Source of the DNA: a virus | Virus record (IMG/VR): IMGVR_UViG_3300027754_000047 | Span: 1-64,000 of that record | Length of the DNA stretch: 64,000 nt | Reading direction: 5' to 3' (one strand) | In this document: in pieces, positions 22,221-35,691 of the stretch | How the letters are laid out: the number at the start of each line of letters is the position of its first letter | How positions within the stretch are numbered: position 1 is the stretch's first letter | Made by a program: the position numbers and the translations under genes | Notes under the pieces: generated by a model | Database searches by the model: none | What the model saw: the letters and a program-made list of their open reading frames with translations, nothing else | Told to the model about the DNA's origin: nothing

Positions 22221-22302
22221 AGTTTTCCTTTTCTTGTTTTTATTTAGTACGAATGCCCAGGGGGGGACTTGAACCCCCATGCCGTTGAAGGCTGCGGATT
22301 TT

Positions 22303-23057
22303 CTTACTACTCCGGAATTTCTCCGGCCCTTTCGGTTGTAGTCTGGACTATATCTTCCCCTTCAACTAAATGGTCAGGGGTATCGTGCATAGTCTCTGAA
22401 CCTTCCACTTGCAACGTTTTCTCGTTGCTTAGCGGCTCGGCTGCTGATTGGCCAATTTCCCATATTTTTATAACTTTCACGGTCGCTGTTTCCAGCCACG
22501 TTGTAGTCATGGGAACTATAAGGCTATTCCAGCAATTCTCGATATTCTCAATCTTTGATTTCTCAAAGATGACTCTTTGACAATTCAAGAACCAATGGAG
22601 TCGGCCGTGCATCTTCCTGGTAATTACCAAGAGATTAGTTGAATCATTATTCTTAGGATTGGCGTCCATATGATGGACTACTTCATGGGTTTGAAGTTTT
22701 CTACCTAGAATAGATTCCGCTATTGCACGGTGCTTCCAAAGCTGGCCGGTTGCTTTAAACGATTCAGGATCGTACTCATACTGGTTTGTATGAACTCCTT
22801 TATCGCATAAAAGACTTCTACAAGCTTTGCAGAATAGAGCGGATCCTCTAGCCGCAGAGAAAACACAACTACATGCTTTACAAGACAAGGTATAGGAATA
22901 CCTGCCTTGAGTTTCAAAGCGCTGTTTAGCTGATTCTCTTTTGGTTAGTAAGTAACACATTCTGCAAAGCTTTCGACCGACTTGTCTTGGACTGTCACAT
23001 TTAGAACATATTAACATGGCGTTTAGTATAACGCGTCTGCCAGTAAGTTCAAAATCA
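22303..23057 (-). other. Group I self-splicing intron with HNH ORF (755 nt)
   Basis: The intron begins after U34 and ends in G immediately before exon 2, the group I omega-G rule. The 3' part has diagnostic core elements: AATCAGCAGCCGAGCC (P/Q region, P4-P5), GGTTCAGAGACTATG (R, P7 5' strand) and GAAGATATAGTCC (S, P7 3' strand). These are typical of phage-type group I introns. The ORF for the endonuclease runs through this core almost to the 3' splice site. I could not place the P1 guide with confidence. Confidence 0.88.
22307..23017 (-). CDS. Intron-encoded HNH homing endonuclease (about 236 aa)
   Basis: The start is taken as the ATG at 23015-23017 (MLICSKCDSPRQVGRKLCRM); the frame is open further upstream, but only into the tRNA exon. 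Two N-terminal zinc knuckles (CSKC..CRMC and CKAC..CKAC) lead to the HNH core HEVVHHMDANPKNNDSTNLL followed by MHGRLH. Such enzymes cut intronless alleles to spread the intron. The last 80 residues are encoded by the ribozyme core, so either the tail is dispensable or core and protein sequence have co-evolved. Confidence 0.88.
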   Translation of the reverse strand: MLICSKCDSPRQVGRKLCRMCYLLTKRESAKQRFETQGRYSYTLSCKACSCVFSAARGSALFCKACRSLLCDKGVHTNQYEYDPESFKATGQLWKHRAIAESILGRKLQTHEVVHHMDANPKNNDSTNLLVITRKMHGRLHWFLNCQRVIFEKSKIENIENCWNSLIVPMTTTWLETATVKVIKIWEIGQSAAEPLSNEKTLQVEGSETMHDTPDHLVEGEDIVQTTTERAGEIPE

Positions 23058-23140
23058 AAGTCCGCTGCGTCTGCCAATTTCGCCACCTGGGCCTAACTAG
23101 CTAGCACATAGTACTGCTAGTAGATTGAATTAGCAAGTAC

Positions 23141-28400: not shown

Positions 28401-29557
28401 CAGGGTGTAGCTTTAGCTTTTTGGAGTGCATTATAGGCTTCTAGTAAATGTGATTGATCTGCCCCAAAAAATTGTTGCATATATTGCCCGTACCTTGAGC
28501 CGCCAATCTCTTTTGCTTGGTCAGCCATGCGCTTGCCTTTAGCCCAGAAGCCAGCATCAGCCGGTAGGCTTGGGTGGTTTGCATTATACTCATCGATAGC
28601 GGCTGGCCCTTCAAGCCCTACAGATGTAGCCATGTTGACTCCTGCTTGGACTGCGCCTTTCAAGGGAGCTACCCACGGAGCACTAGTCAAAATACCGAGA
28701 CCTTGCCTAGCTGTAGTATAGGCGTCACTAGGCAGCACACTGGAATGCATAGTTTTAGCAAAGCCTTGATCTACGGGATTGGTACCGCCTCCGTCCCACG
28801 CATAATACTTAGGATTAAGAGCATAGTGCTTAAGCGACTCGAAAGCAGAGCCAAAAGTACCTTTAACAGCTATTCTAGCGGCCTCAGATTGAGACATTCC
28901 TTGCTGTACTAGTTGAGTTTCTAGTTCTTGCCGACGTTTATCCATTAAGTCGTACCCGTTTGCAGCATGGTGAGCTAGATCATTTACGGCAACCGCTGAA
29001 GTAGCAGTAAGAGCAGGAGTAACTACTCTTTTAGTTATATTTCCTGCCCTTGAGGTCCCTGTTAGGTTCCTAACTCGACCTGAATGAGGGGCAAATACAA
29101 AACGACCTGGCGGAGTATTAGCAACAGCTCTGACCGGAGTAGCAGCAAGCCGACCTGCTCCTCTAACTAATCTGGAGCCAGCGCCTAATGTGCCAGCGAC
29201 TAACGCCAATGCTGCGGGAGTATTACTAGCTATTGCTGGGGCAGCCACTATTCCGCCTGCGGCTCCGCCGGCTAAGCCAGCAACCCCTGTAGACAGGGCG
29301 GCTGCATCTAACAGTTTATCGTTCTGGTATCGTAGGGGAACCTTATTCGTCCCAGGTGCAGCATTTCTAACTCTACGCACAGTATCTAACCAAGTAGAAT
29401 CATCAGCATAATCTGAACCAACTCGACCACCTGACCAATAGTTTGCAGCACCTGTAAAAGGTTCTGCCAATTGATTACCAAAAGTAGACCACCAACCAGG
29501 CTGCTCGGCGGCTTGCTTAAGAACTAGGTTAATTAAGTTGTTGGCGAGTTTAATCAA
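28400..29557 (-). CDS. Ala/Gly-rich virion-like protein, paralogue of the 477-aa gene (385 aa)
   Basis: TTG start at 29555-29557, overlapping the RNA polymerase stop, with GGAGGAGTGGG upstream. Residues 1-20 are MIKLANNLINLVLKQAAEQP. Residues about 25-110 (FGNQLAEPFTGAANYWSGGR and GSDYADDSTWLDTVRRVRNA) are nearly identical to the start of the 39235-40668 product, then the two diverge. AALSTGVAGLAGGAAGGIVA is a membrane-type Gly/Ala segment. Probable ejected or internal capsid protein. Confidence 0.75.
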   Translation of the reverse strand: MIKLANNLINLVLKQAAEQPGWWSTFGNQLAEPFTGAANYWSGGRVGSDYADDSTWLDTVRRVRNAAPGTNKVPLRYQNDKLLDAAALSTGVAGLAGGAAGGIVAAPAIASNTPAALALVAGTLGAGSRLVRGAGRLAATPVRAVANTPPGRFVFAPHSGRVRNLTGTSRAGNITKRVVTPALTATSAVAVNDLAHHAANGYDLMDKRRQELETQLVQQGMSQSEAARIAVKGTFGSAFESLKHYALNPKYYAWDGGGTNPVDQGFAKTMHSSVLPSDAYTTARQGLGILTSAPWVAPLKGAVQAGVNMATSVGLEGPAAIDEYNANHPSLPADAGFWAKGKRMADQAKEIGGSRYGQYMQQFFGADQSHLLEAYNALQKAKATP

Positions 29558-32500
29558 CCCACTCCTCCAACTATTTTGACGGTATCCGTTGCGTCTATTT
29601 CACCTCGGTTAAACGCTCTAATAACGTCATCCTTGGTACGGAAAGATTTTACGTTGTTCTTATCGGCACCCTTACGGCTGGCTAGGAATAGCCCATATAA
29701 GAACTCGTTCTTGATAAAGTTGTGAGCCTTCATAGTGGAAGCCGATAACAAGTTCCTACTAGGCAACATGCGGTCGTAAGCTTCCTTTACAGCCCCTGCA
29801 CTACTAGGTACGTGTAAACGCATCTGATCGCCGTCGAAGTCAGCATTAAAACCTACAACGACTGAAGGGCTCATGCGCATGGTATTACCTGTAGTTAATA
29901 CCGGCTTGGCTGCCATGAAGTTGTATTTGTGTAGTACCGGAGCTCGAGTAATGAGTACCGGCCTTTTTTCCATTTCATACAACAAAGCCCTACGAGCTGA
30001 GTCGGTCTTATTTTCTACTTGCTTCATGGCCTCAATAGGACTAGAGCCAGCAGCAGTAAGGGCTCTAATAATGTACGGCCTAAATACTGTAAATGCCATA
30101 TCTTCTGGTACCCCAACGTGGTCCATATCCATTGATGGATCAGGTGCAATAACGGCATTACCTACCCCTTCGACCGTAGAAGACAAGACCTTGCGTTGAA
30201 ACATACTAAACTTAGGATTGGAACCTAGCAAATGGCGAATTAAACCATTAACGTTCTTTTGCTTTAACTTAGCTGAAGCTGGATCGGTTAGGCCTACAGT
30301 AGCTTTGACCATACGGTAAAGGGCTAGTTGTTCTTTACCTGTAGAATCTGCACCTAGTTCAGTTTGCAGTTCCTTTAAGTTACTATTCATTGAATAGAGT
30401 TCTTTGTAAAGGAAGTTCATATCTGCCACCATCTGCATAGAGCCGGTGTCAGTAATAGGTCGGAATCTAGGAGGCAAGACCGGCATGGAGTCCCACAAGA
30501 ATTCCGATGGGTCTATTTTTCTTTTAGCCATTCCGTCTAGGTAGGCTAACTTAGTAATAGCATTAGATCGCTTTTGGCCTTTAGCTGTAGCCATTTCTTT
30601 CTTAGCTGCAGCCTGCTGGCTAGGAATGTCGTAGTTATGTAAGTAGGCAGTAAGGCCAGCCATACCCTTGATACCCTTAACGTCTTCGCCGCTGACTACA
30701 GCTTCGAAATCCTTTTGGGTCAAGCCAGTTAAGGATCTAACTGCATCCTCCATTACCGGGTTAACTACTTTAGCTGCTAAAGGAAAATGCCCGAAGGAAG
30801 ATTGGTTTACGCCGAAGATCTTCTCGTCAAAGAAGCCGCCATCTACAGCTTTGCCGGTACGGAAGTCTATATCTTTGGGGCTCTTTACTTCACCACCAGA
30901 CATAGCCTTAACGTCTGAATTGGTCATACCGTAGATGTTAATGATGCCGCCTTGGCGTTGAACGTTTACTCCAGCGCCCTTAAGTTGAGCTACGAACTTA
31001 TCCCAAACAAATGGTACGGCTACGTTGGGTACTGGAGTGCCAGCTTTAACTGCTCGCCAGTACTCGTCGTTCTTTTGCCCTCTGATAAGCCTAGCATCCT
31101 TAAGGACTTCTATAGCACCGTGGGCTAATAGGGAGTTAACATCTGCAATACCAATACGCTTAGCGCCTTCGGAGCCTCCCTTTACTGGGGCTTCTTCATT
31201 AGAGTACCCACCGGTATCTCGGCCGCTCAACTTGCCTTCTGCTTGATGGTGCAAGTTCATAAAGTAGCGAGTACCGGTAAAAACGTTATCTATATTCTTG
31301 TTGAGTCTCGGATCAAATATAGTTTCTGTGTCTGAAACTCTAGCTTTTTTAAGTTCGGCTTGAGCGAAGTCAATAAGGGATCCGTCGATGAAAGCTGGCA
31401 TTTTGTACGGTACGCCGGTCTGGGCTGCCAACTTCCCCAATGCCGCTTCAACGGCTTGTACAGGATTAACCCGAGTGACAAGAGCCAATGGATTATAGAT
31501 AACTTCATAAGCTGCTCCTGCCTTATCTTGAGGCATATCACTATCTTCTATTACCGCAGAGATAACACCTTTATCTCCGTAACGCCCTACTAGCTTATCA
31601 CCAGCTGTCATAGGCTTATAGGATTTAATAGCAACTTGCCAACCGGTTCGGGTTGGAGTCACGTCGGTAACTACTCCAGGCTGAGAGTGTTCCCAAGTTT
31701 GAGCCCTATTCGTAAAACTAGGTCGAGATTTCTTCACTAAACCAAAAGTGTCAGACTTACGTTCTCCTACCCCTAAGATAATAGGATCGCCTGGATTAAC
31801 AACCGTGCCTGGTTTAATTACTCCGGTGCTATCCATTTGCTTTAGTTGGTCTTTGGAGTACTGCCCAGGAAACAACGAGATAAACTTGTTGTAATCAGCA
31901 GTATAGTCGTCCTTGTTGTCATAACCTACAGTGTACATATGCTCTGAAGACATCTTCTTCGCAGCACTAGCGGAAACAACTACTCCGTCTTCGAAGTTGG
32001 AACCACCTAGTTCCTCGTCGCCCCAAATCATATATGCTACTTTGAGGTTCTTACCCATAGCTAGGGCACCATTAGCGTCAGTATAGTTAGACTTAGCTAA
32101 TAACTGACCAGGCTTAACCTGATCTCCTAGTTTAACTCCAGCAGTATTGTGTATGTAGGTGTTGTGTACTAGTAGACCGCAATCTACTGCAAACACTTGG
32201 CTGCTGGCGACTTCGAAGTCATAGACATAGGCGGCAGGTTCAGCCTTAGTAATACTTACTACTGTATCCCACATAACGTCAGAGTCTGCCCAAGGCTTAA
32301 GCACTCCGGATTTAATGCGGTGCCGTTGTATGTAGCTTCCAGCAGTAGCAGTCTTGTAAACCGAATGAGGGGTTGTTGCCCCAGTGCCGGCATATGCCAA
32401 GACCCTACTAGCCTGAGTAACAGGGATCCCGTCGAACGTAGCAGCCCTAAAACTAAGGGAGGTTAAACTATTTAGCTTTTCGTTTCGGTCCTGGTAGCAG

Positions 32501-35500
32501 AACCAGGCTGCTAGTCTATTAATGTGGCTAGAGATTACTCTCAGGCCATAACTAGGATTCCAAGCTGCATTTTGGTGGAGCTTAGTCTTTGGCAGTGTGC
32601 AGAATATTCCTAGAGAGGCCAAAATATCTACCAGTCTATCTCTCATTAACAAACTAGCAGTCCAAGCTTGTAGCTGTACGGCTCCATTAGTATCTGAGTG
32701 TAAGCAACCATCTCCAGACATGTAGCCTTGGATTAGGCCCTTACGAAACTCTACTGAGCGGAGCATAGTTTGCTCAGAGGGAGCCTTAGCGCCACTACCG
32801 TGTCCAAACTCTTGCCGCAGCCAAGTAGCGGTTTGCTTACAGGTAAAAGAGGCTTTACCTGTACTAACAGCATTGACGTGAACTTTAAACCCAAGTGTAG
32901 TCAAAAGGATATTAAGCTCTGCTTGCCGAGCTGCTGGTTGAGCGGCCAGTACTACTAAGTTTGGCTGACTTGCAGGTATGTGGCCCTCTGCTAAGTATAA
33001 TCCTGCCAATAAGCCCCAAGCATGAGTATCGTGATCCATGGTGCTGCAGGCGCCTAAGGTCATTCCTACTACAGGCAGTCGAGTTACGCCTACCTCACAG
33101 TCAGCTGGATATATGGGCACTAACTCTCCGGAGTCTCCTAGCGTAACTAAGGAGTGATCCTCAGTAGTAACCACTTGACGGCCAGATAGTGTAGTAGTCA
33201 GCACCAGGCGCTTAGTGTTAGGGATCTTAGCAAACCCTGTGATAGGCTCCCAAGCTGCCGCCTTAGTGTCCAGATTAATGGATCTTATTAGATCCCCTGA
33301 CTCTTGCTGATAGTCTTGGGCGGCTACTTGCTGAATTACTCCAGTTGCTCGTTTGATCCAAACTTTGGTAGCTCCGGCAACACACTTACGGTTAAAAGGA
33401 AAGTTGTTGTACAATTCGTACCGCTTCTTATCCTTGCCGTGCTTAACCTCAATGTAGTCTGCTGTTACATCGGTAACCAAACCTGCACCTAAAGCCGCAT
33501 CTGCTCTTACAGCACCTAAATAGGCTGATACTCCATCTTCGAAAGATTTACCTTCAGCATCGTTGGGATCCAGAGCTTGCACTAATGGTGCTTCTGCTTG
33601 CTGTAAAGGTAACGCTTGAGTGAAGTACTTTGAACCCATTAATAAGCGGCCACCCTTAATACCGGAAATACCAGGTACTAGGTTGGAGTTTAAATTAAAC
33701 ATGTTGGCATAGCTTGGTACCTCGTACTGTACAGCCTCAGGCTCTACGTAAGAGATCTTACCATTAACCATAGCTCGTACTGGGTCGCCGGTTCGTAAAG
33801 CCCTAGCAAGCTCGCCTGGAAAAGCTACAACAGCATCGGTAACAGTTCTAGCAGGTATTTGTTCAATCTTACCTGTTTGGATATTCTTCATCTTAGAGTA
33901 GATCTGGCCGTCAGAACCCTTTAAAGCTCCAATGGTTAATCTAAGATCTACACCTACTTGAGAAGATTCTGGAGTGCGTACTGGATCAATAAAGCCTAAG
34001 TGACTTGGTTGAACGGAGCGGGTATCTACAGGAATACCGTGGGCAGCAGAACCAATACCACCTTCGCCGGTGCGAATGACTCTAAGGTTCTGATCCAGAA
34101 TTTCCATTGGATTAACTTCTTCAATGGGCGCACCTAAACCCGAACCCATTAACACTCCACTAAGTACCGGAGTAAACACGCCGTTTCTAAATGCTTGTAA
34201 ATTGCCTTTATTGGTAGCCTTAAAAAGGGCACCACGTAAAGCACCTCCAGCATCTTTAACTATTCGCTCTGCAAAGAAATCCTCAGGGCCATAGAAACGT
34301 TGATAAGTTAAGGCATCGCGATCATCTACATCTTCGCTGCCCTTTTGAGCATTCAAAACCTTTTGACTAGCTCTTAGTAAGGTGCTGCCGGTAACTCTAG
34401 TTAAGTCTTCTTCGTTTAACTGAATGTGATCATTGCTTGCCTCAAAGTTAAACATAGGCTCAGTTGATTTAACTGGATCCATTAAACCGTTTAAATCGTC
34501 AAAGCCTGCTACCTTTACTCCGACAGCTAATCTAAAGCCACCTGTAGGCTTAGGATCTAATAATAAACTGCGGCGAAACTGCTCTAGTTCCGGACAATCA
34601 ATATCGATGCACCATTCTCCGTTATTAGGAGGTAAGACCTGGCGAACAATATAAGTGAAGCGCCGGCCATTACCGCAAGTAGCTTCAAACTTAGACTTAA
34701 AAAGCTTCTTTAGCTTTTTAATTTCTTCAGAAGTAATTACCACTAAACGGCCTTTGTCTTCTACTGGCGAGATACCTGGAGCATTATCTCCGTCTCTTAA
34801 AGCGTAGTAGACTCCGGTAACCATACCTGCAGGTACGGTGATATAACCTTCGGATTCTAATTTAAGGGTACCCCTCATAGGCACCGCTGCAGTCTTAACG
34901 CGAGCTCCTAAAGTTCTAGCTACTACTTCTTTATTAAGCTCAGTGTTATATAGGGCTGTACGAATACCTTCATACAGGTCAGGCTCACTTATGCCACTAG
35001 ATGGATTACTAGTAAGCCGCTCATATATACGAGCAGCATCATAAGGAGATGATGCTCTATTGTTAGCAAAAATCTCTTTGCCCCAGCTACGCTCAAGTAC
35101 CTCGTCTGGTACTCCGTAAGCCTTAAGCATAGGATATAGTGGCGCAACTGATTGACCAATTTCGGTAACAAACTTACCGGTATCTGGCATGAAGGCAACT
35201 CTAAAGCCTCGACCCTTACCCGGTAAGGTATTAAAGTGAGCTTCGTATTCACCCGACTTACGCTTACGTACATAAGCGCCGGGCAACAACCTAGCTTGAT
35301 TGGCTACAGTGTATTCGCTGCCTGCGTTTATAAAAGTGCCTCTGTTGGTTAAGTAAGGCACTCGAGCTAAAGTTAATGATCTATCTGTCTTATCTAGTAC
35401 AGCTCCGGTGGCTATATCTCGCATAACCAGCTTACCCTTTAACGGGTAATACAAACTTTGATTCTGCATCAAGGCTTGCTGTTGCTCTTTTAAACTGTAA

Positions 35501-35691
35501 TCTTCCGACTTACCATAACGCAAGTCAGTCAACTCCACTCTGTAGCGGGTATTTTGTAAAGGAAACTTAGCTGCTACTGCAGTAAAAACATTATCAAAGA
35601 TGTTTTTACGTGTAGCTGTGTAGTCGCTAAAGCCTCTAAGAGTTGGAGCTTGTGGTTGGATTAGGGCGTTTAAATCGTCCTCAGTAGCCAT
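29554..35691 (-). CDS. Fused RNA polymerase beta + N-terminal beta' protein with intein (2045 aa)
   Basis: Multisubunit-type RNA polymerase. Beta features in order: VPYLTNRGTFINAGSEYTVA (about 110-130), FIDPVRTPESSQVGVDLRL, the intein (770-1177), ALAMGKNLKVAYMIW, SNFEDGVVVSAS, GDKLVGRYGDKGVIS (about 1370) and NPLALVTRVNPVQAVEAALG. Beta' features follow: GEVKSPKDIDFRTGKAVDGG, MPVLPPRFRPI and the catalytic NADFDGDQM (DFDGD 1951-1955). The chain ends 90 residues later (RNLLSASTMKAHNF..). The bridge helix and trigger loop of beta' are absent and must be encoded elsewhere. Spliced length is 1637 aa. Position among virion-like proteins suggests a virion-packaged enzyme. Confidence 0.93.
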   Translation of the reverse strand: MATEDDLNALIQPQAPTLRGFSDYTATRKNIFDNVFTAVAAKFPLQNTRYRVELTDLRYGKSEDYSLKEQQQALMQNQSLYYPLKGKLVMRDIATGAVLDKTDRSLTLARVPYLTNRGTFINAGSEYTVANQARLLPGAYVRKRKSGEYEAHFNTLPGKGRGFRVAFMPDTGKFVTEIGQSVAPLYPMLKAYGVPDEVLERSWGKEIFANNRASSPYDAARIYERLTSNPSSGISEPDLYEGIRTALYNTELNKEVVARTLGARVKTAAVPMRGTLKLESEGYITVPAGMVTGVYYALRDGDNAPGISPVEDKGRLVVITSEEIKKLKKLFKSKFEATCGNGRRFTYIVRQVLPPNNGEWCIDIDCPELEQFRRSLLLDPKPTGGFRLAVGVKVAGFDDLNGLMDPVKSTEPMFNFEASNDHIQLNEEDLTRVTGSTLLRASQKVLNAQKGSEDVDDRDALTYQRFYGPEDFFAERIVKDAGGALRGALFKATNKGNLQAFRNGVFTPVLSGVLMGSGLGAPIEEVNPMEILDQNLRVIRTGEGGIGSAAHGIPVDTRSVQPSHLGFIDPVRTPESSQVGVDLRLTIGALKGSDGQIYSKMKNIQTGKIEQIPARTVTDAVVAFPGELARALRTGDPVRAMVNGKISYVEPEAVQYEVPSYANMFNLNSNLVPGISGIKGGRLLMGSKYFTQALPLQQAEAPLVQALDPNDAEGKSFEDGVSAYLGAVRADAALGAGLVTDVTADYIEVKHGKDKKRYELYNNFPFNRKCVAGATKVWIKRATGVIQQVAAQDYQQESGDLIRSINLDTKAAAWEPITGFAKIPNTKRLVLTTTLSGRQVVTTEDHSLVTLGDSGELVPIYPADCEVGVTRLPVVGMTLGACSTMDHDTHAWGLLAGLYLAEGHIPASQPNLVVLAAQPAARQAELNILLTTLGFKVHVNAVSTGKASFTCKQTATWLRQEFGHGSGAKAPSEQTMLRSVEFRKGLIQGYMSGDGCLHSDTNGAVQLQAWTASLLMRDRLVDILASLGIFCTLPKTKLHQNAAWNPSYGLRVISSHINRLAAWFCYQDRNEKLNSLTSLSFRAATFDGIPVTQASRVLAYAGTGATTPHSVYKTATAGSYIQRHRIKSGVLKPWADSDVMWDTVVSITKAEPAAYVYDFEVASSQVFAVDCGLLVHNTYIHNTAGVKLGDQVKPGQLLAKSNYTDANGALAMGKNLKVAYMIWGDEELGGSNFEDGVVVSASAAKKMSSEHMYTVGYDNKDDYTADYNKFISLFPGQYSKDQLKQMDSTGVIKPGTVVNPGDPIILGVGERKSDTFGLVKKSRPSFTNRAQTWEHSQPGVVTDVTPTRTGWQVAIKSYKPMTAGDKLVGRYGDKGVISAVIEDSDMPQDKAGAAYEVIYNPLALVTRVNPVQAVEAALGKLAAQTGVPYKMPAFIDGSLIDFAQAELKKARVSDTETIFDPRLNKNIDNVFTGTRYFMNLHHQAEGKLSGRDTGGYSNEEAPVKGGSEGAKRIGIADVNSLLAHGAIEVLKDARLIRGQKNDEYWRAVKAGTPVPNVAVPFVWDKFVAQLKGAGVNVQRQGGIINIYGMTNSDVKAMSGGEVKSPKDIDFRTGKAVDGGFFDEKIFGVNQSSFGHFPLAAKVVNPVMEDAVRSLTGLTQKDFEAVVSGEDVKGIKGMAGLTAYLHNYDIPSQQAAAKKEMATAKGQKRSNAITKLAYLDGMAKRKIDPSEFLWDSMPVLPPRFRPITDTGSMQMVADMNFLYKELYSMNSNLKELQTELGADSTGKEQLALYRMVKATVGLTDPASAKLKQKNVNGLIRHLLGSNPKFSMFQRKVLSSTVEGVGNAVIAPDPSMDMDHVGVPEDMAFTVFRPYIIRALTAAGSSPIEAMKQVENKTDSARRALLYEMEKRPVLITRAPVLHKYNFMAAKPVLTTGNTMRMSPSVVVGFNADFDGDQMRLHVPSSAGAVKEAYDRMLPSRNLLSASTMKAHNFIKNEFLYGLFLASRKGADKNNVKSFRTKDDVIRAFNRGEIDATDTVKIVGGVG
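32161..33384 (-). other. LAGLIDADG intein inside RNA polymerase (408 aa)
   Basis: Begins at Cys770 (FNRK|CVAGATKVWI) and ends at Asn1177 with block G LLVHN followed by Thr1178 as the C-extein nucleophile. Block B is TTEDHSLVTLG. DOD motifs LLAGLYLAEG (about 895) and LIQGYMSGDG (about 990) give a two-motif homing endonuclease. Block F is VYDFEVASSQVFAVDCG. Removing it joins FNRK to TYIHNTAGVKLGDQVKPG, the conserved beta segment ahead of the LALGxN strand. Intein removal appears necessary for activity. Confidence 0.93.

Follow-up and report, generated by a model that had tools for sequence, protein, structure and literature searches.

The intron of tRNA-Leu(UAA) is a standard textbook example of an ancient intron and is generally said to lack an ORF and to be immobile. 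Here we consider a phage locus in which an intron at this site carries an HNH endonuclease ORF that runs through the ribozyme itself, and ask where such an intron came from and what the overlapping frame encodes. The first-pass annotation left the origin as a choice: a phage intron converged on the site or was captured into it, or a cyanobacterial-type intron was rebuilt in a phage. On the basis of sequence comparison, we consider it probable that the intron is a recombinant with an HNH frame running through the ribozyme, in which residues 148–190 would form part of the enzyme and the remaining tail would be read-through.

A tRNA-Leu(UAA) gene split in the anticodon

The window (the whole stretch analysed) covers the first 64 kb of an IMG/VR record that is linear and 129,472 bases long. 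Its portal protein is related to that of Salmonella phage Arash. Among its other products are a DNA ligase, AAA ATPases and a 2045-aa protein (29554–35691, minus strand) in which RNA polymerase beta and beta' are fused, with Rpb2 and Rpb1 domains. This protein is split by an intein with a LAGLIDADG domain and is related to proteins of Salmonella phage Arash and Vibrio phage D69.

ARAGORN missed the split tRNA-Leu gene in the unspliced window. When the exons are joined, it returns an 84-nt tRNA-Leu(taa) with all stems intact and the junction at U34^A35, in agreement with the earlier description of positions 22254–23092 as a perfect tRNA-Leu interrupted at the site of the cyanobacterial and plastid tRNA-Leu(UAA) intron. 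CCA is not encoded. The 3 kb upstream contain a single compatible 5′ half, whereas shuffled sequence would be expected to give 0.04. The coordinates of all features are given in Table 1.

The tRNA D-arm (23067–23076, minus strand) contains a 10-nt sequence, TGGCAGACGC, that is repeated just inside the intron, ahead of the ORF (23033–23042, minus strand); these are the only two copies in the window, compared with 0.06 expected. Partial repeats resembling it are also present in L027, L247 and L041 (L numbers denote loci). The repeat may be a trace of how the HNH ORF was acquired.

Table 1. Features of the split tRNA-Leu(UAA) gene and its intron.
Feature	Position in window	Strand	Evidence
5′ exon of tRNA-Leu(UAA), acceptor strand to U34	23058..23092	-	ARAGORN on joined exons
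Group I intron, 755 nt, between U34 and A35	22303..23057	-	
HNH endonuclease ORF, 236 codons, P1 loop to P9	22307..23017	-	
HNH_3 domain, residues 94–139	22601..22738	-	Pfam PF13392, E 2.7e-8
Both ribozyme core (P1′ to P9.2) and coding (residues 148–236), ~269 nt	22307..22575	-	
Internal guide sequence GAGUC, 3′ strand of P1	22571..22575	-	Pairing with exon GACUU
P2 hairpin	22551..22570	-	Both-side changes in 7/8 pairs
P3 5′ strand UAUCG	22540..22544	-	Both-side changes in 5/5 pairs
P4-P5-P5 extension-P4′ domain, phage protein-gene intron type	22442..22534	-	Profile scores, covariation, blastn
P6	22400..22441	-	Covariation alignment
P7 5′ strand GACUA	22390..22394	-	RF00028, invariant in alignment
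P3 3′ strand CGAUA	22381..22385	-	Covariation
P8	22357..22380	-	Both-side changes in 3/4 pairs
P7 3′ strand UAGUC	22346..22350	-	RF00028, family alignment
P9 domain, tRNA-Leu intron type: closing stem and two hairpins	22303..22349	-	Class T covariance model
3′ exon of tRNA-Leu(UAA), A35 to discriminator base	22254..22302	-	ARAGORN on joined exons

Structure of the ribozyme

The Rfam covariance model RF00028 matches positions 22591–22323 with 59.3 bits (E 1.7e-12), above its gathering cut-off of 50, which confirms the group I assignment made in the first pass. The 5′ exon pairs with the internal guide sequence so that a U.G pair falls on the splice site, and the intron terminates with the omega-G at 22303. 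P3, P4–P6, P7, P8 and the P3/P7 pseudoknot of a group I core are all present.

Nine introns of the W family, described below, were aligned. In the 69 predicted pairs, 96.9% of cells are paired, compared with 28–40% in slid controls, a comparison that leans towards the structure because the structure was derived from the same alignment. Double changes are seen in 39 pairs (116 cells), a level reached in none of 500 shuffles. Covariation is present in P2, P3, P5, P6, P8 and P9, while P4 and P7 are invariant. These double changes are strong, and the covariation supports the group I fold of the W introns. It had been stated beforehand that a core failing to fold as a group I intron would refute the annotation; given the RF00028 score and the covariation, that failure was not seen. 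From what is known of group I introns, the window intron is probably self-splicing: guanosine would attack after U34, held in P1 by the internal guide sequence, and the exons would then join to give a functional tRNA.

Introns in tRNA genes of other phages and bacteria

A pattern search for a phage-like P7′ with a tRNA-Leu 3′ half downstream picked out 93 stretches in IMG/VR viral contigs. Exons were joined by acceptor and anticodon-stem complementarity and then submitted to ARAGORN, which supported the joined tRNA at 64 loci including the window. Of these, 63 are tRNA-Leu; L049 was called Phe because its junction is off by one base. The joined loci hold 50 distinct introns, 193–1087 nt in length, nearly all at U34^A35 and with or without an ORF; HNH ORFs occur in many phage tRNA-Leu introns. 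The search pattern favours U34^A35, and other insertion positions are therefore under-counted; one phage intron class appears to be inserted before C32 and another between U33 and U34. An apparent end before C32, with unjoined exons, is seen at L007, L011, L014, L020, L038, L046, L055, L068, L080, L082, L086 and L093.

Most phage tRNA-Leu introns (here called class T) have a core in common with bacterial and cyanobacterial introns. In a genome scan, the matches listed include tRNA-Leu introns in cyanobacteria, Gammaproteobacteria, Clostridia, Bacilli, Bacteroidales, Chloroflexi, Salinibacter and others; tRNA-Leu introns beyond the cyanobacteria had been noted earlier in Beggiatoa and Thiomargarita (PMC4853749). 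Also among the matches listed are tRNA-Phe(GAA) introns of Patescibacteria at the equivalent anticodon position (L142, L157, L175, L192, L197, L200 and L208). The literature searched, which had no preprints and few subscription papers, yielded no description of a group I intron in a phage tRNA gene. When one class T intron from a phage and one from a bacterium were used as blastn queries, no full-length intron was returned from isolate phages. The window element belongs to a known kind, though its form is unusual, and the larger surprise is the phage intron reservoir at the tRNA-Leu site. With many ORF-bearing phage relatives at the same site and related introns in many bacterial phyla, the tRNA-Leu(UAA) intron's history of transfer and loss becomes testable.

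A probable double origin of the intron

The W family consists of 14 loci: L001 (the window), L016, L030 (which has a duplicate, L081), L049, L232, L247, L257, L259, L270, L283, L284, L285, L292 and L294. It was enlarged to this size by a second scan and a protein search. Common to its introns is an HNH ORF that lies in the P1 loop and extends into the ribozyme; in 13 of the 14 it passes through P2–P5. At L259 the intron and the tRNA 3′ half are present and no matching 5′ exon is found upstream. The phage that holds the closest W relative, L247, has a second intron end of the same P9 type (L247:11350–11700) ahead of a different tRNA 3′ half (GTAATCC, perhaps Tyr). A possible extra tRNA intron with a class T-like P9 (E 0.26) lies just upstream of the tRNA-Leu gene at L049:9776–9907.

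The W and class T cores do not align in P4–P6, and domain-level profile tests were therefore used in place of the core phylogeny proposed in the first pass. P3–P6 and J6/7 of the window intron resemble phage protein-gene introns such as those of Twort nrdE and Staphylococcus DW2, scoring 85.3 bits against the class B (phage protein-gene) profile; P3 to J6/7 of the eight W introns then known gave 54–90 bits with the protein-gene intron profile. Against a tRNA-Leu profile with cyanobacteria included, the only match to a W 5′ domain was L030 at -0.2 bits, the window giving none.

The 3′ end gives a different result. A P9 covariance model built from class T only scores 32.4 bits (E 5e-5) at 22349–22303 in the window; counting the window, nine of the 14 W loci match it at the 3′ splice site with E <2e-4 (best 7e-10). 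It has no match at the W introns of L049, L259, L283 and L294, is marginal at L016, and has none at the introns of 35 protein-gene (class B/IA) loci. Conversely, the class B P9 profile matches no W P9. As a sequence profile, P9 alone gives a weak signal of 3–11 bits, and a comparison using P8 only did not separate the two possible donors.

The earlier impression of a phage-like core therefore stands for P3–P6 and J6/7 and fails for the P9 end, which is of tRNA-Leu type. Since each half is of a different type, capture of a phage intron and rebuilding of a cyanobacterial-type intron each fit one half of the molecule, and the exclusive choice between them has to be revised. The idea of a simple IA/IC3 chimera was revised, as there are protein-gene introns with the same P4–P6 that also lack the extra P7-P3 helices. 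The best reading of the domain signals is recombination: a phage protein-gene group I intron would be the source of P3–P6 and J6/7, and the P9 end, perhaps with P8, would come from an intron of tRNA-Leu type already present at the site.

The same signals can be read in two other ways. A protein-gene intron may have been transplanted whole, its P9 then adapting to the resident type because the anticodon context requires it; the weakness of the P9-alone sequence signal is consistent with such convergence, as are the W introns at which the P9 model is marginal or silent, and some of the resemblance in P9 could come from constraint imposed by the shared tRNA site. We nevertheless regard convergence as less likely than recombination, and on the whole unlikely, because other introns at this site (L017, L034 and L043) have a very different short P9, so that the architecture is not obligatory; the P9 model E values, which reach 7e-10 in W members, also argue against it. 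Direct descent from a cyanobacterial or plastid tRNA-Leu intron, with the ORF gained later, would account for the shared insertion site and for a P9 end of the same type, but P3–P6 shows no detectable similarity to the tRNA-Leu introns of cyanobacteria, other bacteria and phages, and scores 54–90 bits with phage protein-gene introns. The cyanobacterial P7′ string, moreover, has no exact pattern match in the viral contigs, and we consider direct descent highly improbable.

An endonuclease frame through the ribozyme

The ORF starts with the ATG at 23017 and its stop ends at 22307, 4 nt ahead of the 3′ splice site. The first-pass annotation was thus correct in describing a 236-codon HNH ORF that passes through the core to within a few bases of this site: the HNH_3 domain is recognised by Pfam (Table 1), and H115, H116, N124, N128 and H137 are invariant among seven homologues. 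A hairpin that would sequester the ORF start is weak in the window (z -1.8).

The HNH frame is open from P4–P5 to P4′ in 13 of the 14 W loci, counting L270 and L292, which keep a remnant after partial deletion of the ORF, and L016, where the contig ends within it, and the P4–P4′ segment has the same length in all 13. In L284 the frame shifts inside P5 and stays open in its new frame. The earliest natural stops are at P4′ (L285, L294); the others are at P6 (L283, L232, L257, L270, L292), P3′ (L259), P7′ (L016) and P9 (the window, L030, L049, L247). In 13 length-matched protein-gene cores, the same frame contains 0–4 stops; two of the 13 have none, which rules out the idea that every protein-gene core stops in that frame. 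In a wider set, 12 of 54 other cores are open in it, one being the W member L247, which is also the only one of the 12 with a long upstream ORF. The stop-free contrast owes something, in part, to base composition and to shared ancestry, the 13 W sequences being related. pN/pS in the W family is 0.73 in the coding frame against 1.10 and 1.33 in the other two, a weak signal that comes from a 99-nt stretch.

An AlphaFold2 model built from the seven homologues has a mean pLDDT of 70.7. Over residues 1–190, the values per ten residues are 57–92 and mostly >70, falling to <40 from residue 191 on; the model thus suggests that residues 1–190 are folded and residues 191–236 disordered. Helices are modelled at residues 148–157, 159–177 and 185–191. 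The earliest natural stops, in L285 and L294, come directly after the equivalent of residue 189. A Foldseek search of the PDB with the HNH model gave no significant match (I-HmuI only at E 5.9), and a profile search of PDB sequences with the HNH protein gave no match. In view of the break in the model at residue 191 and the earliest stops after 189, the stretch encoded by P2–P5 (approximately residues 148–190), which is conserved and modelled as helical, is probably part of the enzyme, and the tail of residues 191–236, variable in length among relatives, is probably a dispensable read-through extension, or "core creep." The ribozyme core therefore appears, judged from these comparisons of sequence, also to encode part of a DNA-cutting enzyme.

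In the proposed mechanism, the endonuclease frame would begin in the P1 loop and carry on through the ribozyme. A ribosome passing through this region would undo the ribozyme fold, so that any one transcript should be either translated or spliced, not both. From what is known of the family, the HNH enzyme would cut intron-less tRNA-Leu genes near the anticodon, and repair would copy the intron in; the window element is probably mobile, homing by means of this enzyme.

The frame through the ribozyme could instead be accidental, the enzyme effectively ending ahead of the core and the remainder being functionless read-through. A review of such overlaps expects dispensable, variable tails (PMC3073962), and beyond P4′ the tail does vary in length and is modelled as disordered. 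Against this, no W member stops before P4′, 13 of the 14 are in frame with a constant P4–P5 length, the frame-shifted L284 is open in its new frame, pN/pS is lowest in the coding frame, and residues 148–190 are modelled as helices; an accidental frame is accordingly rather doubtful, even if it is the most credible of the alternatives that we have weighed. Much less credible is the suggestion that the window tRNA is a decayed or non-functional relic, in a locus kept by the endonuclease alone. The 129-kb record has only two further tRNA genes, Arg(tct) and Met(cat) (ARAGORN), CCA is not encoded, and the W relative L259 is without a recognisable 5′ exon, all of which would suit a relic; but the stems of the joined window tRNA are all intact, and clean tRNA-Leu is obtained from 63 joined loci including the window, which makes a relic very unlikely.

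We therefore retain the reading of a recombinant intron whose HNH frame would continue as enzyme through residue 190. In its fullest form, the proposal would be that the W family arose by recombination of two group I lineages, that P2–P5 is dual-coded, serving as catalytic RNA and also specifying a folded C-terminal part that the enzyme requires, and that phages are a major reservoir of such mobile introns at this ancient site; this combination we hold tentatively, as plausible but somewhat short of probable. The W family also provides a natural series for core creep, with one enzyme and stops at P4′, P6, P3′, P7′ and P9, with which to examine the importance of individual core-encoded residues and the way in which a single sequence serves both translation and RNA folding.

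Comparison with known systems

The cyanobacterial and plastid tRNA-Leu(UAA) group IC3 intron has the same host gene and U34^A35 site as the window intron, and likewise, just ahead of the 3′ splice site, a P9 made up of a closing stem and two hairpins. It differs in P3–P6, which in the window is not of IC3 type, and only the window intron has a long HNH ORF that extends from the P1 loop through the core; the cyanobacterial introns retrieved are 219–290 nt in length, and so too short for such an ORF.

P3–P6 of the window intron is approximately 70–77% identical (blastn) to that of the introns in Twort nrdE, a Staphylococcus DW2 tail gene, Bacillus BpSp PolB and the AR9 prohead protease, and similar protein-gene introns in IMG/VR match it to the same degree (~70–77%, blastn). 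These phage introns are located in protein genes and have a different P9, and many of them have extra P7-P3 helices, which the window intron lacks.

The Synechocystis tRNA-fMet intron is, like that of the window, a tRNA anticodon-loop intron with an endonuclease ORF (I-Ssp6803I) in P1. This ORF overlaps P1/P2 by 61 nt (PMC3073962). The tRNA is a different one, however, the nuclease belongs to the PD-(D/E)XK family, and the overlap is far shorter than in the window.

The term "core creep" for overlap of an ORF with the ribozyme was coined in a 2011 review, where the overlaps given include 20 nt for T4 td/I-TevI, 56 nt for Bacillus thuringiensis nrdF and 81 nt for Synechococcus lividus LSU rDNA, the largest in its table, some entries of which may be annotation errors (PMC3073962). 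In those introns, as in the window, the endonuclease ORF overlaps the ribozyme core. The window overlap is approximately 269 nt, from P1′ to P9.2, compared with at most 81 nt in the review table, and in the W family, unlike the core-creep introns, it is conserved family-wide, with graded end points.
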